Of a stretch of DNA of 15,833 nucleotides, positions 1-15,779 are shown one piece after another. The DNA is from a bacterium. GTDB lineage: Bacteria; UBP6; JAFGXH01. The first letter of the stretch is position 1; each line of letters opens with the position of its first letter. The stretch lies in the NCBI GenBank assembly GCA_027064085.1, contig JAMOQH010000053.1, positions 1 through 15,833 on the forward strand. Direction: 5' to 3'. The translations under genes were made by a program, and so were the position numbers. A model generated the notes under the pieces. That model did no database searches and was not told the origin of the DNA. It saw only the letters and a list, made by a program, of their open reading frames with translations.

Positions 1-1164
1 CTTGTCTTTATTATTCACAGGATGAGTCAACGACTCCTCCTTACTGTGCATAGTAGCTAGTTTTTGATTTACATTACTATTTTTATTGAGGGTAAAAACG
101 AATAAAATAATATTAAAAACTAGAAGTACACCTATTCCATAAAGGAAATGGCTTCTTTTACTAAAAAGCCCCTTCTTCTTTTCTTTTCTTTCTATCATTC
201 TATAATCAGAACGACTATGAACATCAGGAAGAATACTTTGAATATAATTTACATATCCAGGTTGTAACATTTCAGTTGCATATCTACTAAAAACTAATTG
301 TGTACTTATTTTCTCTTTTAAATTTAATAAATCTTTTTTTACTAATCCTGCAGATAAATATCTTTTATCTCTATCAACTTTTAATAATTTATATACTATT
401 TTTTCTACTTCAGAAGATAAATCATCACGGAAATCTGAGATAGGAGCATATTGTTCATTCATAATATTTTGTTGTGTTTGATAAACATTCCCCTCTCTAA
501 AAGGATGTTTATTAGTTAATAATTCATAAAACATTACGCCTAATGAAAATAAATCAACCCTATTATCTAAATTTGGTAATAGTTTAATTTGTTCAGGACT
601 CATATATGAAGGTTTTCCTTTTACTTCTCCAAAAGTAGTTAAATCCTTCTTGTCTTCAAATTTAGCAATACCAAAATCACTAATTTTCACTTCTCCATAT
701 ATTGAGAGCAAAACATTTTTAGGTGTCAAATCTCTATGTATTATGCCTAAATGTTTACCCGTAACATCTCTTTTATTATGATAAAAATCCATTCCGGTTA
801 AAAGATTATTAATTATAAAAAGCACATGTTCAATAGGTATAAATAAATCACCCTCTTTATTTACTGTCATTAAATCTCTTAGTGTACCACCGTTAACAAA
901 TTCCATCAATATATGCAACTCATTATTTTCTTCAAAAAAATCAAATACTTGTACCACATTAGAATGATTTAACTTAGCAGAAATAGAAGCTTCATCAACA
1001 AACATATCAAGATATCTGTTATTATCAAAATGTTCTTTAAGGATTTTTTTAACAACTACTTCTTTTTTAAAACCATAATTGCCATGCAAGTAGCCTCTAT
1101 AGACAATCGCCATTCCACCTTGACCTATTTTTTCAACAACTTCTATTCTTTCTAACATTGCCAT
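1..1164 (-). CDS. Membrane-anchored Hanks-type Ser/Thr protein kinase, C-terminus beyond window
   Basis: The frame is open for 388 codons from ATG 1164 to the window edge, so the C-terminal end is missing. The motifs of an active eukaryotic-like kinase are visible: glycine loop GQGGMA (residues 14-19), the VVVKK lysine (K39), a helix-C glutamate (E58), catalytic loop HRDLTPKN (143-150), DFG (163-165), and SPE in the APE position (189-191). A hydrophobic stretch at about 341-358 follows a basic segment and should be a transmembrane helix, putting the kinase in the cytoplasm and the lost tail outside the membrane. By family knowledge it phosphorylates Ser/Thr on partner proteins, often ones read by FHA domains, and two FHA proteins lie about 5 kb away. 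It is the last visible gene of a run with the barrel-like gene and amidase. The ribosome binding site is weak (GGAT before ATG 1164); ATG 1158 is an alternative start. Its substrates cannot be read from sequence. Confidence 0.95.
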   Translation of the reverse strand, partial: MAMLERIEVVEKIGQGGMAIVYRGYLHGNYGFKKEVVVKKILKEHFDNNRYLDMFVDEASISAKLNHSNVVQVFDFFEENNELHILMEFVNGGTLRDLMTVNKEGDLFIPIEHVLFIINNLLTGMDFYHNKRDVTGKHLGIIHRDLTPKNVLLSIYGEVKISDFGIAKFEDKKDLTTFGEVKGKPSYMSPEQIKLLPNLDNRVDLFSLGVMFYELLTNKHPFREGNVYQTQQNIMNEQYAPISDFRDDLSSEVEKIVYKLLKVDRDKRYLSAGLVKKDLLNLKEKISTQLVFSRYATEMLQPGYVNYIQSILPDVHSRSDYRMIERKEKKKGLFSKRSHFLYGIGVLLVFNIILFVFTLNKNSNVNQKLATMHSKEESLTHPVNNKDK

Positions 1165-3516: not shown

Positions 3517-3545
3517 TTGACTTTATCACTTTATTTTTTTATTAT
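3517..3545 (+). promoter_or_regulatory. Sigma70-type promoter of the Tad/FHA operon
   Basis: TTGACT (3517-3522), a 17-nt spacer and TATTAT (3540-3545) stand 29 nt before the cpaB start. This is the best promoter match in the 135-bp gap between the divergent amidase and cpaB genes. Its -35 box is only 24 bp from that of the opposing promoter, so a shared regulator could act on both. Confidence 0.65.
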
Positions 3546-3574
3546 TAAGGTTGTTAACTTGTTTGAGGGATTAA

Positions 3575-4387
3575 ATGGTAAAAGGTAAGCTTCCACTTGT
3601 AATAGGCGTAGTTCTTGGTATTATTGCAGCATCTATTGCTTATATTAGTGTAAAAAAAGAAAGAGAAAGAATTAAAAAGGGCTGGGAAATGGGTCAAATC
3701 CTTGTTGCAAGAACAGAAATCAAAGCAGGAACCAAATTATCTAGTGATATGCTTGGAGTAGGAGTCATGCCTCTTAGATATATTAGAGATGGTATGTTAA
3801 AGCCAACAAATAGAGGCTATATTATTGGACAACCTGTAACCACAGATATTCATGCAAATGATCCTATTTTTGATTATGACATAGAAGTTGTTAATGTTAC
3901 TGAAGGCTTATCTAAAATGATTCAAAAAGGAGGACGAGCCGTTTCTTTAAGTATTGGTGGAGCAGCCGCTGTGGCTAACTGGGTAAGACCAAATGACCAT
4001 GTTGATATAATAGGAGTATTTAAAGATCCTAATACTCGTCAACAAATGGCAATGACTTTATTAGAAGATGTTATTGTTATTGCTACAGGTGAATATACGG
4101 GCGAAAACTTTAAATCAGCGACTAAAGATAAAACAGGACAGGTTGATTATAATAATATAACCTTATATGTTTTACCCCAAGAAGCTGAAATTTTAATTTT
4201 AGCTCAAACATTAGGAACCTTGTATCTTTCTCTTAGGAATCCTGAGGATTTATCATCTTTGACACAAAAAGGAAGAGTTACTCTTGATACAATTTTTACT
4301 GGTGACAGAACGATGAAGTTAAAAGCACTTAGACGAAAAGTACTACAAACAAGACCTGAAATCATAAAAGGTGGTACTGGCCGTTAA
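3575..4387 (+). CDS. cpaB: Flp/Tad pilus assembly protein CpaB (RcpC)
   Basis: CpaB/RcpC is the periplasmic, inner-membrane-anchored component of the Tad (Flp) pilus machine and is thought to work with the secretin. This 270-residue protein has an N-terminal membrane anchor (about residues 7-26), a SAF domain (about 41-105, beginning ILVARTEIKAG, the typical start of this domain) and the RcpC/CpaB domain (about 110-220, including AVSLSIGG, WVRPNDHVDIIG, LLEDVIVIA and ITLYVLPQEAEILILA). Length and domain order are normal for the family. The start is set by GAGGG 5 nt before the ATG. It opens a plus-strand run with tadB 15 bp downstream. Normally the secretin and TadZ/TadA genes follow cpaB, but here tadB does. 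Confidence 0.93.
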   Translation: MVKGKLPLVIGVVLGIIAASIAYISVKKERERIKKGWEMGQILVARTEIKAGTKLSSDMLGVGVMPLRYIRDGMLKPTNRGYIIGQPVTTDIHANDPIFDYDIEVVNVTEGLSKMIQKGGRAVSLSIGGAAAVANWVRPNDHVDIIGVFKDPNTRQQMAMTLLEDVIVIATGEYTGENFKSATKDKTGQVDYNNITLYVLPQEAEILILAQTLGTLYLSLRNPEDLSSLTQKGRVTLDTIFTGDRTMKLKALRRKVLQTRPEIIKGGTGR

Positions 4388-4402
4388 TATAAGGATTTAA
4401 TT

Positions 4403-5254
4403 ATGATATTCTATATAATCTTAATTTTTGCTACTTTTTTCGCAGTTATTCTGTTAACAAAGTCAGTATTTGATATTTTGGATAAAAGTTCTGAAGAATA
4501 TAAGAAAAAATATGTATCTCAAGCTGTTGATGATTTTGAGAGTATGTTCATATATATTACTCCTAACCAATTATTCTTTTTAAATATTGCAATAACTGCA
4601 ATTATACTTTTGCTTGCAATAATGACTTTTGACACTTGGACATTTAGAATAATTACAGCTACAATTGGTTTTTTCATACCAGGGCAAATTATAAAAATCA
4701 TAAAAAAGAAGAGGCTTGAAAAGTTTAATAAACAACTAGTTGACGCCTTAATACAAATGGCAAATGCCTTTAAAGCAGGACTTAGTTTTTCACAAGCAAT
4801 GCAAAATATTTCCGAAGAGGGTATTCCACCTCTTTCTTTAGAATTTGAATTAGCATTAAAAGAAATAAAACTTGGGGTTCCAATAGAGGAAGCTCTCGTA
4901 AATATGGCTAAAAGAGTTCATAGTGAAGATTTAGACTTAGTTGTAATTTCAACTAATATTGCGAGGCAAATGGGTGGTAACATGTCTGAAATGTATGACA
5001 CTATTTCTGTAACAATTAGAGAGCGTTTTAGACTACAAGGCAAAATAGCATCTTTAGTTTCCCAAGGTAAACTTCAAGGGTTTGTAGTAGGGGCAATGCC
5101 ATTATTACTTGGAATGGTTTTAAATAAAATGCGCCCTGACTTAATGGAACCAATGATGGAAAGTTGGTTTGGAGTTATTCTTGTTGTTCTTATTGTGATA
5201 CTAGAATTTTTTGGGGCTTTAATGATCAAAAAGATCATCAGTATTGATGTTTAA
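4403..5254 (+). CDS. tadB: Tad pilus inner-membrane platform protein TadB
   Basis: This 283-residue protein has the layout of TadB: hydrophobic helices at the N-terminus and around residues 55-100, a central GspF/T2SSF cytoplasmic domain (about 105-240) and two C-terminal membrane helices. The T2SSF signature is clear in FKAGLSFSQAMQNIS and in the ARQMGGNMSEMYDTIS stretch, the latter typical of TadB. TadB and TadC form the inner-membrane platform that, with the TadA ATPase, drives pilin extrusion. A ribosome binding site (AAGGA) precedes the ATG. It lies 15 bp after cpaB and 11 bp before tadC. The assignment as TadB rather than TadC rests on its position and on the MGG motif. Confidence 0.93.
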   Translation: MIFYIILIFATFFAVILLTKSVFDILDKSSEEYKKKYVSQAVDDFESMFIYITPNQLFFLNIAITAIILLLAIMTFDTWTFRIITATIGFFIPGQIIKIIKKKRLEKFNKQLVDALIQMANAFKAGLSFSQAMQNISEEGIPPLSLEFELALKEIKLGVPIEEALVNMAKRVHSEDLDLVVISTNIARQMGGNMSEMYDTISVTIRERFRLQGKIASLVSQGKLQGFVVGAMPLLLGMVLNKMRPDLMEPMMESWFGVILVVLIVILEFFGALMIKKIISIDV

Positions 5255-5265
5255 AGGATAAATAT

Positions 5266-6126
5266 ATGGATAACTTACTACCGCTTTTATCTACTGCATT
5301 TGCTTTTTTAGCAGGATATTTTATATTTATGGGAATTTTTCCATCTCGTTTTTTAGAAGAAGCATCTTCTATGAAAGGTGAAAAAGATACCATGGTGAGC
5401 TTGATTAAAGAGCTTTTAATCAAGAAAATGAGTGTTAAGCTAAAAAAATACATGTCTGAGAAATTTGAATTATCTGTTAGAAAACAATTAATCATGGCAG
5501 GAGAACCTGAGGGACTAAAACCTGAAGATATTTTATCAATGATGGTGTTATCTGCTCTTTTAGGAATAGCCTTTCTCACTCTTATATTATTAATGTTAGG
5601 AAAATCCCTAACAATTGCTCCTTTCGGAGCAGTTGCATTTTTTCTAACTAGATTATGGTTAAGAGATCAGGTAAAAAAAAGACACTTTGAAATAACAAGA
5701 GCATTACCTTATGCAATTGATTTACTCACTTTATCAGTAGAAGCAGGTTTAGATTTTTCTGCAGCTGTTGGAATGGTTGTTGAAAAAGGACAACCAGGAG
5801 CACTTAGAGAAGAATTCTCTATCCTTTTAAGTGAAATGAAAATGGGAAAGACAAGATCTGTTGCATTAAGAAATTTAATGGAAAGAGTTGACCTATTAGC
5901 TTTATCATCTTTTATTAGATCTCTAATTCAGGCCGATAAAATGGGAACTAGTTTAGGTAAAATATTAAGGATTCAATCAACTCAAATGAGGATAGAAAGA
6001 ACCCAAAGAGCGGAAAAGTTAGCAAATGAGGCTCCTGTAAAAATGCTCGGACCTCTTATTATGTGTATATTTCCTACAATTTTCATGGTTCTTTTTGGAC
6101 CAATTGTTTATAAGTTTATTTCTTAA
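5266..6126 (+). CDS. tadC: Tad pilus inner-membrane platform protein TadC
   Basis: This second T2SSF-family protein (286 residues) pairs with TadB. It has an N-terminal membrane helix (about 4-24), a central hydrophobic pair (about 88-125), a T2SSF domain (about 145-255, with LPYAIDLLTLSVEAGLDFS and the LIQADKMGTSLGKILR stretch characteristic of TadC) and a C-terminal membrane helix ending IVYKFIS. Length is close to the family norm. An AAAGGA ribosome binding site precedes the ATG and the gene is 11 bp after tadB, so translation is probably coupled. The TadA (CpaF) ATPase that should energise this platform is not in the window. Confidence 0.93.
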   Translation: MDNLLPLLSTAFAFLAGYFIFMGIFPSRFLEEASSMKGEKDTMVSLIKELLIKKMSVKLKKYMSEKFELSVRKQLIMAGEPEGLKPEDILSMMVLSALLGIAFLTLILLMLGKSLTIAPFGAVAFFLTRLWLRDQVKKRHFEITRALPYAIDLLTLSVEAGLDFSAAVGMVVEKGQPGALREEFSILLSEMKMGKTRSVALRNLMERVDLLALSSFIRSLIQADKMGTSLGKILRIQSTQMRIERTQRAEKLANEAPVKMLGPLIMCIFPTIFMVLFGPIVYKFIS

Positions 6127-6146
6127 TTAAGGAAAAGGAAAAATCT

Positions 6147-7496
6147 ATGGGAAAACAAATAACTTTAAAGTTTCTAACCGGACCTATAAAGGGGCAAACA
6201 TTTACATTTGATGAAGACCCCGAAATAATAATAGGTCGCATAGATGATTGTGATATTACATTAAAAGACCCTAAAATATCCTCTGAGCATTGTGGTATAT
6301 TTTTTGAAGACGATGAATATTTTTTAGAAGATTTTGAAAGCACAAATGGAACATATGTAAATACTACTAAAGTTGACGAAGATGAATATGTTCTTGAGGG
6401 TGGAGAAACTCTTTTTTTAGGTTCTTCAAAAGTTTCTGTTAAAATCTCAGAATCTTCTGCTAAAATAGTTCCTGTTGTTGAAGATGATTTTAAAGAAAAT
6501 AATGATGAATTTGATTTTGAGGAAGATACAAATATAAAAAAAATAAACCCTCATAAAGGATTTAAGAAGTTTTTTGATATTGATTATTATCTGGATTTAA
6601 AAGAAAAATTCCTCTCACTTGATAATACTAAAAAAGCCATAATTATCGTAATAATTTTATTTTCTATAATATTAATAGGAACAATGTTTTCTAAATTAAC
6701 AAATAAAGACGGAAAAGGATTCTTCAAACGCTCTTGGAGTGACAATTCCGAAAAGGTGATGGAACTTAATGACGGCGTAATTAAAAAACTTATGGGATAT
6801 ATATCAATTAGAAATGGACGAACAGAAGATTTTTCTCACCCTAAAAAAATTAGATTTAAATTCAAAGTTTCTAATCAAGAAAAAATTATTGTTCATTATA
6901 AAGTAACAAAAATTGAATATTTAGATGAAGTGGTTATAAAATTAAATGGAGTAAAAATCGCTAATGCACCCTTAACAAGTACTGAAGTAATGACAGTTAA
7001 ACTAAATTTTCCTTTTGAAAATCTTAACTTTGATAAAGAAAATCTTTTAGAATTTATAAATACTAAAAATCTTGGTTCTCGAAAATATAAAAATTGGGGA
7101 ATAATGATTTATCGAGTAGATAAAAGATTATTGCCCAAACCAGACTTTGATAAAGCAAAAGAAAATTACTTAAAAGCCGATAAGTTTTATGAACAAAAGA
7201 AAATTTCTCGAGGTAATAGATATAAAGCACTTACATATTATCAAGCAGCAATAGATTTCATGGAACTAATGAAAGAAAAACCTGATTTTTATTATGATGC
7301 TAGAGAAAAAATTAAAACAATTCAAAAGGATTTTAAAAAGATATATCAAGATAATAGATATGCTGCAATTAGAGCTTTTAAGTTTCGTAAATATAAAGAG
7401 GCGAAAGTTTATATAAATAATATCATTGAAGAAATTCCTGATGAAGATGACAGTAGGTATACAACAGCATTAAAAATGTTAAATGCAATACCATAA
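6147..7496 (+). CDS. FHA-domain transmembrane protein with extracytoplasmic beta-rich and TPR-like regions
   Basis: This 449-residue protein has an N-terminal FHA domain (about 1-100) with the phosphothreonine-binding residues in place: G30-R31, S45..H48 (SSEH) and N67-G68 (TNGT). An acidic linker (about 111-128) leads to a transmembrane helix (about 164-182), so the FHA domain should be cytoplasmic. Outside lies a beta-rich region (about 230-325, with VVIKLNGVKIANAP and NWGIMIYRV) that resembles a jelly-roll binding domain, followed by helical TPR-like segments (about 335-445). It begins 20 bp after tadC behind a purine-rich ribosome binding site, and so belongs to the pilus run. By family knowledge, FHA domains dock onto phosphothreonine made by Hanks-type kinases, so it could tie the Tad platform to phosphorylation. 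The role and the extracytoplasmic ligand are unknown. Confidence 0.85.
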   Translation: MGKQITLKFLTGPIKGQTFTFDEDPEIIIGRIDDCDITLKDPKISSEHCGIFFEDDEYFLEDFESTNGTYVNTTKVDEDEYVLEGGETLFLGSSKVSVKISESSAKIVPVVEDDFKENNDEFDFEEDTNIKKINPHKGFKKFFDIDYYLDLKEKFLSLDNTKKAIIIVIILFSIILIGTMFSKLTNKDGKGFFKRSWSDNSEKVMELNDGVIKKLMGYISIRNGRTEDFSHPKKIRFKFKVSNQEKIIVHYKVTKIEYLDEVVIKLNGVKIANAPLTSTEVMTVKLNFPFENLNFDKENLLEFINTKNLGSRKYKNWGIMIYRVDKRLLPKPDFDKAKENYLKADKFYEQKKISRGNRYKALTYYQAAIDFMELMKEKPDFYYDAREKIKTIQKDFKKIYQDNRYAAIRAFKFRKYKEAKVYINNIIEEIPDEDDSRYTTALKMLNAIP

Positions 7497-7510
7497 TTTT
7501 TAAAAATTTT

Positions 7511-7516
7511 GAGGAG
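7511..7516 (+). promoter_or_regulatory. Ribosome binding site GAGGAG that fixes the start of the second FHA protein
   Basis: GAGGAG sits 4 nt before ATG 7521. The longest frame opens at TTG 7509, but that codon lies ahead of this site and has no Shine-Dalgarno of its own, so ATG 7521 is preferred. Confidence 0.8.
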
Positions 7517-7520
7517 AGAT

Positions 7521-9635
7521 ATGTCACCATTTGATGATTCAGATAAGACTGTTGCTGATTTTGATTTAGATGCTTTTAACAAAGAAATGGAAGAAAAGCA
7601 AAAATCCAAAGATGGGAAGAAAAATTCTTCAACCCAAGATGTTAAAGAACTAGAAGAGTTTGAAGAACTAGAAGATTTTGAAGAACTAGAAGATTTTGAG
7701 GAGCTGGAAGATTTTGACAAAATAAATAATGATAATGATAATGATAAACTAGATTCTGGTTTTAATGATTATTCTCCTGATTTTACTGATGATTTAGATG
7801 ATATTGATGATGATTTATTTAATGAAGACTCCATTATTTCTAGAGGTTTAGAAGATTTATCAGAAGATAACTCTAAAAAGAAATCTAAAAAAAGAAAACG
7901 AAGGGGAAAATCTAGTAATCCTGATAAAACTATGATAGCCTCAGTAGAAGAAATTGAAGAAGAAATTGAAGAAGAAGTTGAAGAAGAAGCTAGTTCCTCA
8001 GAGAAAACAGAAATTTTTTCATTAAGTGATTTTGAAGAAGAATCTAGTAGCATTATTGTAGAATTAGCTAGAATAAAAATTATTGAAGGAGCAGATCTAG
8101 AAGAATATTCAATAAAGCAAGAAAAGGTTGTCATTGGACGAACTGAAAATAATGACATAATAATTCCAAATAAAACGATTTCAAGAAATCATTGCGAGAT
8201 ATCTAAAACAGAAAATGGTTTTAAAATCAAAGATTTAAACAGTGGTAATGGCATAAAAGTAAATAATAAAAAACTTAGCTCTAAGATATTAAAATCAGGT
8301 GATATTATACTAATAGGTAAGGTAAAACTTCAATTTATTGACCTATCAGTTGAACATGGAGGAGCATCAGAATCAACTGGTTCTGTTATTTTAAAGAAAA
8401 GAAAACCTCCTAAAAAGAAAGTAATTATTATCGCATCTGTAGCTGTAGTTTTTATATTAATACTATTGATTGTTTTTGCTCAAATTAGTAAGAAAAAAAG
8501 ATTAAAACAAGAAAAAATAGCTAAAATTCAAGCTGAAAATCAAAAAAGAAAAGCATTAAAAAAGAAAATATCGTTATTTTACTCAAGAGGTATTGAAGCT
8601 TATAAAAATAAAGAATGGAATTCTGCAATCACATATTTTGATAGAGTCTTAAAAATAAGGCCAGATTACAGTAAGGCAAAAAGTTATAAGAAATTCGCAA
8701 TATCAGAAAAAACTAATAAAAAACTACTTAAAGATTCTGAAGACTTATTATTAAAAGATGATTATCAAGGTGCATTATTTAAGTTAAAAAAAGTTCAAAA
8801 TACTTCTTCATATTATGCAGAAGCACAAGATAGATTTAAAATTGCAGCTAAAAAATATAAGAAATACAGATATGGATTAGCAAAAAAAGCAGCTGATGAT
8901 GAAGATTATGAAAAATCATTAGATTTTTTAACATCTCTTCTTGAAAGATATCCAGAGTACGACGATGCACTAAAGCTAAAAGAAATTGTTGACGAAAAGC
9001 TACTTTTAGCAAAGAAAAAGGATGAACCCAAAAAGGTTAAAATCAATTTAAAGTTTGATGAAAGTAAATATGTAAAAAAGAAGAAGAAACCTAATAAATA
9101 TGCTAAGGGATTAGTTTTATATGGTAACAAACAATTTGATGCAGCAATTAAATATTATCAAAAATTATCAGCAAAAAATGCTGCTAAATATGCAAAAAAT
9201 GTTCAAAATTTTAAATTAGTATACTCTAAAGGTATAAAATATTTAAAACTAAAAAATCCATCAAAAGGGATTAAACTTTTTAATAAAGCAATCTCTATAG
9301 ATGGTAAGCTAGGTAAAAAACTTGCAAAAGATATAAAAGCTAAATTATCTATTTTATATGCAATAAAAGCTAAAATTTATTTTGGAAGTAAAGATTACAG
9401 AAAAGCCTATAAATCAGCGAAAAAAGCAACTATTTTAGGACACTCCTCTGAAGCCAATAAAGTACTTGCTAAATTAGAAAAGAGAGCAAGAGACTTATAC
9501 CTTTCCGCATATCAACAAGAGAGAAGAAGCCCCGAATCAGCTAAAAGAGATTATAAATTAATAATGTCTATTCTTTCGCCAGGTAGTAAAATATATCAGA
9601 AAGCCAAAAAAAGATTTGGTAAACTAAAGAATTAA
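7521..9635 (+). CDS. FHA-domain transmembrane protein with acidic repeat N-terminus and TPR tail
   Basis: This 704-residue protein begins with a long acidic, low-complexity region (about 1-180) that contains four ELE(D/E)F(D/E) repeats (43-66), a basic patch (119-130) and a Glu/Ile run (143-156). An FHA domain follows (about 183-272) with G206-R207, S221-R222..H224 and N243-G244, the expected phosphothreonine pocket. A lysine-rich stretch precedes a transmembrane helix (about 300-320). The C-terminal half is helical with about five TPR-like repeats, for example near 354-387, ending close to the C-terminus. Three acidic-KT-hydrophobic motifs (threonines 10, 137 and 163) precede the FHA domain. 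It is the last gene of the cpaB-tadB-tadC-FHA run, 24 bp after its neighbour. It probably scaffolds a membrane complex; a direct link to the pilus is inference. Confidence 0.87.
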   Translation: MSPFDDSDKTVADFDLDAFNKEMEEKQKSKDGKKNSSTQDVKELEEFEELEDFEELEDFEELEDFDKINNDNDNDKLDSGFNDYSPDFTDDLDDIDDDLFNEDSIISRGLEDLSEDNSKKKSKKRKRRGKSSNPDKTMIASVEEIEEEIEEEVEEEASSSEKTEIFSLSDFEEESSSIIVELARIKIIEGADLEEYSIKQEKVVIGRTENNDIIIPNKTISRNHCEISKTENGFKIKDLNSGNGIKVNNKKLSSKILKSGDIILIGKVKLQFIDLSVEHGGASESTGSVILKKRKPPKKKVIIIASVAVVFILILLIVFAQISKKKRLKQEKIAKIQAENQKRKALKKKISLFYSRGIEAYKNKEWNSAITYFDRVLKIRPDYSKAKSYKKFAISEKTNKKLLKDSEDLLLKDDYQGALFKLKKVQNTSSYYAEAQDRFKIAAKKYKKYRYGLAKKAADDEDYEKSLDFLTSLLERYPEYDDALKLKEIVDEKLLLAKKKDEPKKVKINLKFDESKYVKKKKKPNKYAKGLVLYGNKQFDAAIKYYQKLSAKNAAKYAKNVQNFKLVYSKGIKYLKLKNPSKGIKLFNKAISIDGKLGKKLAKDIKAKLSILYAIKAKIYFGSKDYRKAYKSAKKATILGHSSEANKVLAKLEKRARDLYLSAYQQERRSPESAKRDYKLIMSILSPGSKIYQKAKKRFGKLKN
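7647..7718 (+). repeat. Four tandem 18-bp in-frame repeats encoding ELE(D/E)F(D/E)
   Basis: Four consecutive 18-bp units encode a six-residue acidic hexad with Leu and Phe at fixed positions. Units two and three are identical as protein, and the DNA copies differ by only a few synonymous changes, which suggests recent expansion. The hexads lie in the disordered acidic N-terminus of the larger FHA protein, and copy number may vary between strains. Confidence 0.85.
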
Positions 9636-13458: not shown

Positions 13459-15075
13459 TTAAGGAGTAGGAATATCTCCTCCTCCTGTTCCTACACATTG
13501 GCCGTTAATACAAAACTGACCAGGAATACAATCATCATTTGATTCGCATGTATTTCCGCCATTATTGGCAATACACATTCCTGCCATACAAGTTTGTCCC
13601 ATGTAACACTGATTGTCATCTTCACATCCCTGACATGCAGAGCGTCCAAAAAATGATTGACATTCCATTCCGTCTTTACAGTCGTCAGCATTATCACAGT
13701 GTCCATCTGTGTAGTAGCATTCACCACTCATAAAATCACATGATTTACCTTCTGCACACTGGTCATTTGAAAAACATCTTCCGCCATTATTATTACCATC
13801 AGTAGAACAATATTTTAAAAAGCCCATTAAGTCTTGACATGTTTGACCTTCGGGGCAATCTCTATCTGTTTCACAACCAGTACAATATCCCATCTGACAA
13901 GTTAATCCTGCACCACAGTCAGCATCATTAGTACAGCCACTTCCTCCATATTCACATTTATTTGTATCTGGATTACAATGTTGCCCCACTCCACAATCTG
14001 CATCACTATAACAAATATTTTCTTGAGGAACACATTTATGTGAATTTAAATCACAAATCAATCCAAAATCACATTCACCGTCATTATTACATTCAAATTG
14101 TTCTGGAATACATTTATGAATACTTGTATCGCAAATCATACCATAATCACAATCCCTATTATCATGGCATCCTTCTTGTCTTGGAACACATTTGTTAATT
14201 TCAGTATTACAGATAAATCCATCTTGACAATCTTCATTACTTCTACAACCTTCTGGTTTACGAACACATTTATGATATTGTAAATTACAAATAAAACCTT
14301 CTTCACAGTCGTTATCATTATTGCAATCTGTTGGTTTAGGTACACAAACATGTTTATTTAGATTACATATAAATCCTTCTGCACACTCATCGTTATTTCT
14401 ACATTCAACAATTTCCTTACATTGATGAGTATAAATATCACAGTATTCATTTTCTTTACAATCTTGTTTTGAATTACAAGCTTCTTGCTTTTCTTTACAG
14501 TAGCCATCTTCAGCACAATATTGTCCATTAAGACATTCTGCATCTTTTTCACATTCTCTGTAATCTTTACATTCGCCTAAATTTCTGTCACAATATTGAT
14601 TTTCTTCACATTTAATTGTGTCACATGGATTTGGTTGTACACATTTATTATCAGTTGGAAAACATTGAGTTAACCCTGTGTTATTACCATTGTTATCTTT
14701 TATTTCTTTACATTCAAAACCATTAGGACAGTTATGATTTTCATCACAAAATGAAGAACAAAACTTACCATTTTCTAATGTCATACATAAATCTATTCCA
14801 CAATCACCATGATTTTCACATGTTTCACATAAGTGAGCTGTATATTTAATACACTTTTTATTAATTGGCTCACATATTTCGTCAGTTTCACAATTACAAA
14901 CTTCTAATTTCTCACATTTATGAGTATTAGGATTACAAAATTCATCAATTTTACAATCATTCTGAGTTGTACACTCATTAGATACATTATTTTTTTCTTC
15001 TGTTTTTTGAGCTCTATCTAAACAACCTGTTGTAAAAAAAAGCATACTTAAAACAATTAAAATTAAATATTTCAT
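13459..15075 (-). CDS. Large lipoprotein made of tandem four-cysteine modules
   Basis: This 538-residue protein has a lipoprotein signal peptide (lipobox TTGC, lipidated C18), a short polar segment and then about 17 small cysteine modules to the C-terminus, which ends in a Gly/Pro-rich tail. The best-conserved block (225-380) is six consecutive 26-residue units with cysteines at unit positions 1, 7, 13 and 20 and the pattern C-x5-C-x2-G-x2-C-x6-C. Modules like these (Dickkopf-N-like 'DADC..G..C') recur in surface proteins of Myxococcota and relatives, where the cysteines presumably pair as disulfides outside the cytoplasm. No enzymatic motif is visible. A role in adhesion, as a spacer or in the cell coat is inference. 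The start is set by GGAGG 7 nt before the ATG, and it has its own strong promoter. Base composition is richer in TGT/TGC codons than its neighbours. Confidence 0.9.
   Translation of the reverse strand: MKYLILIVLSMLFFTTGCLDRAQKTEEKNNVSNECTTQNDCKIDEFCNPNTHKCEKLEVCNCETDEICEPINKKCIKYTAHLCETCENHGDCGIDLCMTLENGKFCSSFCDENHNCPNGFECKEIKDNNGNNTGLTQCFPTDNKCVQPNPCDTIKCEENQYCDRNLGECKDYRECEKDAECLNGQYCAEDGYCKEKQEACNSKQDCKENEYCDIYTHQCKEIVECRNNDECAEGFICNLNKHVCVPKPTDCNNDNDCEEGFICNLQYHKCVRKPEGCRSNEDCQDGFICNTEINKCVPRQEGCHDNRDCDYGMICDTSIHKCIPEQFECNNDGECDFGLICDLNSHKCVPQENICYSDADCGVGQHCNPDTNKCEYGGSGCTNDADCGAGLTCQMGYCTGCETDRDCPEGQTCQDLMGFLKYCSTDGNNNGGRCFSNDQCAEGKSCDFMSGECYYTDGHCDNADDCKDGMECQSFFGRSACQGCEDDNQCYMGQTCMAGMCIANNGGNTCESNDDCIPGQFCINGQCVGTGGGDIPTP
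13936..14403 (-). repeat. Six tandem 78-bp units encoding 26-residue four-cysteine modules
   Basis: Residues 225-380 of the cysteine-rich lipoprotein consist of six units of exactly 26 residues, with cysteine 1 of each unit at 225, 251, 277, 303, 329 and 355. The units share the core GFIC/GLIC and HKCV-type endings. Flanking modules of 20-25 residues are more diverged. The exact periodicity points to expansion by in-frame duplication. Confidence 0.88.
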
Positions 15076-15194: not shown

Positions 15195-15779
15195 ATGAGA
15201 TTAATTATCCTAGTTTCATTATCAATATTTACAATAATCTCTTGTGACAGTGGTCCTGTTGAACCCAATATTAGAATTGACTCTCAAGAGGATGCCTTTA
15301 AGCAAGAACAAAGATTAAAAAAAAGATTTGAAAGAATACATGCTCAAAGAAGAGAAATAACTAAGAAATCAGTTGAAGTTCAGGCAAAAAGAAGAAAATT
15401 TTTAATAGATACAAGTGACCTTGAAAATACAAAAGAACAAAAAATAGATTATTATCTTGGAAAAGCAAAAGCTGCACAGAAAGTTTTAAAAATGAATACT
15501 GCAATTGAATATGCGAATAAAGTTTTGGATTTAGACCCTAAAAATGTAGAAGCTAAAAAAATTCTTCAGTATTATAGAAAAATGATATCTATTAGCAACA
15601 GATATACCCCTTCTGCAAGTATGGATAGAAGAAATAAAAAAATGGCTAAAGAAGCTAAGGCCAATATACAAACTCAAAAAGGTAAAAATTTATATGAAAA
15701 CTTTAAAAAAGATGTAAATAAAAAAGCACCTAAAGGCTTTAGATTTGAAGATGCCTTTAAAAAAAATACGAGAAAATAG
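15195..15779 (+). CDS. Small lipoprotein with a TPR motif
   Basis: This 194-residue protein has a lipoprotein signal peptide with lipobox IISC (lipidated C17). Asp follows the cysteine, which in Enterobacteria is an inner-membrane retention signal; whether that rule holds here is unknown. A basic, probably coiled-coil helix follows (about 38-72), then one TPR unit (about 89-122, ending AIEYANKVLDLDPKNVEAKKI) and a Lys-rich C-terminal helix. No enzymatic motif is visible. A TPR lipoprotein could be a pilus- or envelope-assembly scaffold, as TadD or PilF are, but a single TPR is too little to assign it. The start has an excellent ribosome binding site (AGGAGG 4 nt before the ATG). No terminator is visible in the 54 bp that remain before the window end. 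Confidence 0.85.
   Translation: MRLIILVSLSIFTIISCDSGPVEPNIRIDSQEDAFKQEQRLKKRFERIHAQRREITKKSVEVQAKRRKFLIDTSDLENTKEQKIDYYLGKAKAAQKVLKMNTAIEYANKVLDLDPKNVEAKKILQYYRKMISISNRYTPSASMDRRNKKMAKEAKANIQTQKGKNLYENFKKDVNKKAPKGFRFEDAFKKNTRK

Follow-up and report, generated by a model that had tools for sequence, protein, structure and literature searches.

A probable Kil-type Tad platform operon with two membrane-bound FHA proteins in a genome placed outside the Myxococcota

FHA proteins are over-represented in the Kil system of M. xanthus, where one FHA domain is fused to KilF, and a phosphorylation cascade has been suggested for this system, as in the P. aeruginosa T6SS (Seef et al. 2021, PMC8460266). 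The Kil pilus and its tips were demonstrated in later work (PMC12075869). In Bdellovibrio, a tadC operon encodes Bd0474, in which two FHA domains are combined with a transmembrane helix and TPRs. Bd0474 binds Bd0075 and is needed after attachment; the mutant attaches but does not kill (PMC6561027, PMC12034629). Invasion by Bdellovibrio also requires the diguanylate cyclase DgcB, whose FHA domain binds its own phosphorylated tail LEKpTSIVAS (PMC6733907). The association of FHA proteins with Tad systems and the idea that phosphorylation acts on Kil are already published.

The window analysed here is a whole contig of 15,833 bp (about 27% GC) from a genome of 3.65 Mb in 195 contigs. Five genes are arranged head to tail on its plus strand with successive gaps of 15, 11, 20, and 24 bp (Table 1), flanked by a divergent amidase gene upstream and a convergent gene for a periplasmic binding protein downstream. 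The cpaB product matched the profiles RcpC/CpaB (Pfam, 2e-23) and pilus_cpaB (NCBIfam, 8e-44). FHA domains were matched by Pfam in FHA1 (1.7e-17) and in FHA2 (1.8e-19), the latter also matching TPR, and each of these proteins has one hydrophobic helix (residues ~164–182 in FHA1, ~301–319 in FHA2). The preliminary description had stated that cpaB, tadB, and tadC are followed without a break by two single-pass FHA proteins, and both the genes and their domains were confirmed, with gaps of 11–24 bp. Its starting point for the run, position 3517, could not be retained, as coding begins at 3575 and position 3517 is a promoter-like hexamer, which alone is no evidence. FHA2 probably starts at the ATG at 7521, which has a GGAG upstream, rather than at the TTG at 7509, the mechanical start of the open reading frame.

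Table 1. Features of the operon and of the kinase gene in the window (positions in the 15,833 bp contig)
Feature	Position	Strand	Basis
Ser/Thr protein kinase, C-terminal TM, 3' end off contig	1..1164	-	intact HRD and DFG motifs
cpaB/kilB homologue (RcpC/SAF domains, one N-terminal TM)	3575..4387	+	domain matches; 40% identity to M. xanthus
tadB/kilG-like inner-membrane platform protein	4403..5254	+	T2SSF 8.1e-16; 53% identity to M. xanthus
tadC/kilH-like inner-membrane platform protein	5266..6126	+	T2SSF 2.4e-16; 52% identity to M. xanthus
FHA1: FHA, disordered linker, TM, periplasmic beta-sandwich, TPR-like helices	6147..7496	+	domain match, model
FHA1 FHA domain (residues 3-99), pocket R31, S45, H48, N67, G68; S46 for usual Arg	6153..6443	+	alignment, structure
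FHA1 linker Thr motif EEDTNI (T128), DTN[IV]/STNI across family	6519..6536	+	sequence
FHA1 transmembrane helix	6636..6692	+	sequence, model
FHA1 periplasmic beta-sandwich, CBM-like	6756..7130	+	model, structure comparison
FHA1 TPR-like C-terminal helices	7146..7487	+	model, structure comparison
FHA2: acidic disordered tail, FHA, TM, TPR array	7521..9635	+	domain matches
FHA2 tail motif PDKTMIASV (T137), family-conserved	7920..7946	+	alignment
FHA2 tail motif SEKTEIFSL (T163), close to DgcB LEKpTSIVAS	7998..8024	+	alignment
FHA2 FHA domain, GR / SR.H / NG pocket	8061..8339	+	Pfam, alignment
FHA2 transmembrane helix	8421..8477	+	sequence
FHA2 periplasmic TPR-rich region	8568..9620	+	domain match

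The order cpaB-tadB-tadC-FHA-FHA is that of the Kil system of M. xanthus (MXAN_3102-3108, MXAN_4648-4661). As in Kil, there is an excess of FHA proteins and a second cluster, which is located on another contig of the genome (C149) and codes for a secretin, for a CpaF ATPase bearing FHA at its N-terminus, and for a double-FHA protein with a transmembrane helix and TPRs. The ATPase combines FHA and T2SSE in one open reading frame of 580 aa and is 61.5% identical to M. xanthus KilF over the full length; the gene order kilC-kilF-double-FHA equals the kilC-kilF-kilD order of M. xanthus AM003 (kilA-kilC-kilF-kilD). An N-terminal FHA domain on the Tad ATPase is likewise found in class III CpaF (PMC12019362), to which the window adds separate membrane FHA proteins. 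The double-FHA protein matched KilD partially (24–33%) and is a paralogue collinear with FHA2 (25% over ~570 residues); unlike KilD, for which a cytoplasmic location is described, it carries a transmembrane helix. Two Flp pilins (C188, C75), a CpaA-like prepilin peptidase (C179), and a TadE-like protein (C126) are encoded on separate contigs, and the window genes may make joint use of them. The peptidase gene does not adjoin kilC here, in contrast to Kil. The Flp-like major pilins are very similar to each other (GQGMTEYIIIVALIAVAAIGVVTLFG; L184 7663–7938 and L185 8127–8411), their genes lying on different contigs apart from the other tad genes.

In a CpaB-TadB-TadC tree the window was placed on its own long branch inside a Kil-type clade of 63 rows (SH-aLRT 100). 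The gene order, the clade support, the FHA-KilF gene in kilC-kilF-kilD order, and the presence of pilins, peptidase, and TadE-like protein argue for a Kil-type assignment. Judged from sequence, the run is very probably the inner-membrane platform half, that is the core of kil cluster II, of a Kil-type Tad (type IVc pilus) machine. The phylum placement of the host is a further difference from Kil: as placed, the genome lies outside the Myxococcota, based on kinship grading in which Citreicoccus inhibens shares just its domain. Horizontal transfer from the Myxococcota was considered and not adopted: the tree puts the family, inside the Kil-type clade, on a long branch whose position there has no clear support. 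A role in anti-phage defence was rejected, as neither cpaB nor the FHA proteins had a match in PADLOC.

At its end the window carries a TPR lipoprotein gene (15195–15779, plus strand), of which an 84% identical copy is found at the end of C149 (L172 16706–17290, minus strand), and the final 123 bp of the window recur identically in C149. The assembly may have broken here at a duplicated gene, in which case kil clusters I and II may lie close together, about 22 kb from each other. The window also codes for a Cys-rich lipoprotein (13459–15075, minus strand) with Dickkopf/DUF7107-like repeats, which has look-alikes elsewhere in the genome (L178, L185).

Two further genomes of the family (G001, G002) have the identical five-gene order, TadC being 74% identical. 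The flanks differ: G001 has TrkH and a CHASE2-cyclase there, G002 a gene for an alcohol dehydrogenase and one like poly(A) polymerase. As the block recurs with different flanks in these genomes and also in distant Myxococcota, it is not a chance arrangement. TadC was present in 3 of the 28 genomes of the host's phylum that were examined, namely the window genome, G001, and G002. When named genomes were scanned with TadC, the matches came mostly from Myxococcota, and M. xanthus AM003 has the same order of all five genes. An FHA-domain gene follows tadC directly or closely in 60 of the 61 best named loci (L073–L133; the exception is L131); usually there are two such genes, in the Archangium-like group often one. 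One of these loci, the MAG DYRY01 (L073), is labelled Anaeromyxobacter dehalogenans; with ~29% GC it groups with the window's family and is probably misnamed.

The preliminary description had proposed to compare the gene neighbourhoods of FHA homologues. In 77 of the 89 Myxococcota genomes among the matches listed, the periplasmic part of FHA1 has a homologue at most 6 kb downstream of a Kil-type tadC and on its strand (median distance to tadC 842 bp). The outcome which that description had named as refuting, homologues mostly remote from tad genes, did not occur. The other 12 genomes mostly have split contigs or just a second paralogue among the matches listed. FHA1-like genes also follow tadC in loci of Kiritimatiellota/Verrucomicrobiota; five Pseudomonadota loci with weaker TadC matches had no FHA1-like gene directly after tadC. 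The link therefore characterises the Kil-like branch and is no general property of Tad systems. The FHA–Tad association is neither new nor local and is not a novel fusion of systems. One of the second paralogues mentioned above, that of Citreicoccus (L058 ~7840–9414, minus strand), is located away from tad genes among phospholipase-D-like, aconitase, and WYL-regulator genes, and the linker of this orphan contains STRI/STRM motifs.

The operon of Bdellovibrio bacteriovorus Bd0470-Bd0475 resembles the window in having an FHA protein (Bd0473) and an FHA-TM-TPR protein (Bd0474) encoded together with tadC (Bd0470), a likeness judged from the papers, by description only. Bd0474 differs in having two FHA domains.

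The intact phosphothreonine pocket that had been ascribed to both proteins of the window was verified by alignment, the canonical residues being present in both domains. The pocket R/S/H/N/G was found in 44 of 44 FHA1 and 38 of 38 FHA2 domains aligned. The Arg following the pocket Ser is kept in 40 of the 44 FHA1 domains; it is lost in the window's family, which has Ser (S46 in the window) or Gly instead, and its DgcB equivalent, R76, contacts the phosphate. The FHA scaffold of SctD type in the T3SS has an FHA-like head that lacks a phosphothreonine pocket. An assignment of the window proteins to this type was rejected because the Yop-YscD_cpl match is poorer than the FHA match and the pocket is intact.

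The model of FHA1 (pLDDT 86) comprises the FHA head (1–102), a disordered linker (105–138), the transmembrane helix, a sandwich (204–328), and C-terminal helices (334–447). By structure the head is nearest to OdhI, GarA, DgcB, and FhaA, with Z 17–19 for the first three. The best structural matches of the sandwich are the crown domains of BcsB (Z 8.8, 106 residues, rmsd 2.8), followed by CBM35/36 with Z ~7, and the helices are BamD-like (Z 8.1); a sequence search of the periplasmic region against the PDB gave nothing useful. The TPR-like repeats previously proposed outside the membrane in both proteins hold for FHA2, whereas in FHA1 the outer part begins with a beta-sandwich and TPR-like helices come only after it. 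The modelled likeness to carbohydrate-binding sandwiches combined with TPRs is weak, near the level of a common arrangement, and no function is claimed from it.

In the tail preceding the FHA domain of FHA2, sequence is conserved only in short stretches that contain Thr motifs, such as PDKTMIASV and SEKTEIFSL. With the FHA fold of FHA1 and the acidic-x-Thr-x-hydrophobic motif ahead of the FHA domain of FHA2, the window proteins share features with DgcB and GarA/OdhI (PMC6733907); these are soluble, whereas FHA2 belongs to a pilus machine, sits in the membrane and carries TPRs, and its peptide binding is putative. Of 18 long FHA2 tails, which represent about five clades, 15 contain the pattern [DE]xTx[ILV], chosen after inspection of the tails; the shuffled expectation is 2.5, a statistic that ignores kinship. 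In 2000 shuffles at most 8–9 tails had the motif and none reached 15. Control patterns with T->A, T->G, or reversed order stayed at chance level, and the Ser version was mildly high. The motif was found in 0 of 19 short tails, nearly all of them Myxococcaceae-like; the tails of the Myxococcaceae are short and basic, and the long, acidic tail of the window with its DgcB-like Thr motifs differs in this respect from that of M. xanthus. A limited literature search retrieved no paper on Thr motifs of FHA2 tails. Beside the kilC-kilF cluster, a protein of 305 aa with FHA and GGDEF domains is encoded (L053 9228–10145, plus strand), which resembles DgcB in domain layout and whose tail reads EERTAIIDS.

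A kinase for these motifs might be sought in the window itself, where the kinase gene at 1–1164, absent from the default list of open reading frames, is situated 2.4 kb from cpaB and codes for a protein with intact catalytic motifs and a C-terminal transmembrane helix. That it is the dedicated kinase of the operon is nevertheless very improbable, given two unrelated genes in between and 25 kinase places, besides 5 PP2C places, in the genome. This kinase flank is not kept in the sister genomes, and a kinase motif near the operon was found in 1 of 66 other loci, the remaining 65 having none; an operon-dedicated kinase was rejected on this linkage.

Taken together, the explanation we favour, and hold to be likely with some reserve, is a Kil-type machine in which FHA1 and FHA2 are conserved structural parts that cluster through phosphorylated tails. 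FHA1 and FHA2 would each span the membrane once. The FHA head would face the cytoplasm, close to the ATPase and TadBC; the periplasmic body, made of TPRs and in FHA1 also of the CBM-like sandwich, would lie close to CpaB, the secretin, and the cell wall. A Ser/Thr kinase would phosphorylate Thr motifs in two disordered segments, the FHA2 tail and the FHA1 linker. Once phosphorylated, these segments would be bound by the FHA heads of the two window proteins, of KilF, and of the double-FHA protein, and this binding would gather the components into an active machine at a contact site. The Bdellovibrio mutant in Bd0474, which attaches without killing, supports this explanation. Gating of the machine by phosphorylation, as the preliminary description had proposed, is plausible, with the chances about even: the pockets and bait-like tails suggest a kinase switch without proving it. 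In its favour are the intact pockets, the tail motifs, the DgcB precedent, and the kinases and PP2Cs of the genome. The case is weakened by the absence of the tail motif from the Myxococcaceae, the family where Kil function was demonstrated, by the missing Arg in FHA1 of the window's family, and by the lack of a linked kinase at the operon elsewhere (1 of 66 loci). In a more specific version FHA2 would be a multi-site phospho-switch in the platform, one or more kinases marking the DgcB-like tail motifs for docking by FHA heads, and the same kind of tag would activate not only the pilus but also the neighbouring FHA-GGDEF protein, which would then make c-di-GMP locally; we regard this version as speculative and rather unlikely.

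Two other explanations were weighed against phospho-tail clustering. The machine could be an ordinary adhesive Tad pilus, Kil-like by sequence, in a host that is no predator and in which the FHA proteins tune attachment. This is possible but the less probable reading: a Kil-type system in just 3 of 28 genomes of the phylum, the lack of any record of predation by the host, the mostly betaproteobacterial occurrence of FHA-bearing class III CpaF (PMC12019362), and the FHA protein after tadC in Kiritimatiellota-type loci would fit it, whereas it leaves aside that both kil clusters are kept in the M. xanthus order with FHA-KilF and that a protein with the layout of the predation enzyme DgcB adjoins cluster I. 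Alternatively, FHA1 and FHA2 could form a constitutive scaffold like PilN/O/P of T4aP or the GspL/M alignment complex of the T2SS, phosphothreonine binding being incidental or constitutive and gating nothing; in this case they would tie the platform and the ATPase to CpaB and the secretin. A scaffold in this sense, and likewise such a tie, appears unlikely to us. It would need no phosphothreonine pocket, yet the pocket is invariant in 82 domains, and the long tails retain their Thr motifs while the remainder diverges. The position of the FHA genes directly after tadC beside the platform genes and the FHA-TM-periplasmic layout speak for it, as do the Myxococcaceae, which keep the FHA proteins without the tail motif, and FHA1 of the window's own family, which lacks one phosphate-contacting Arg.

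To what is published, the present analysis may add the occurrence of Kil beyond the Myxococcota, as the host genome is placed, the statistics of the pockets, the conserved motifs of the FHA2 tails, and a CBM-like sandwich with TPR helices outside the membrane. Membrane FHA proteins with intact phosphothreonine pockets count among the constant parts of the Kil-type prey-contact pilus, and T137 and T163 of FHA2, together with the DgcB precedent, may serve as exact handles on how the assembly of Kil is triggered.
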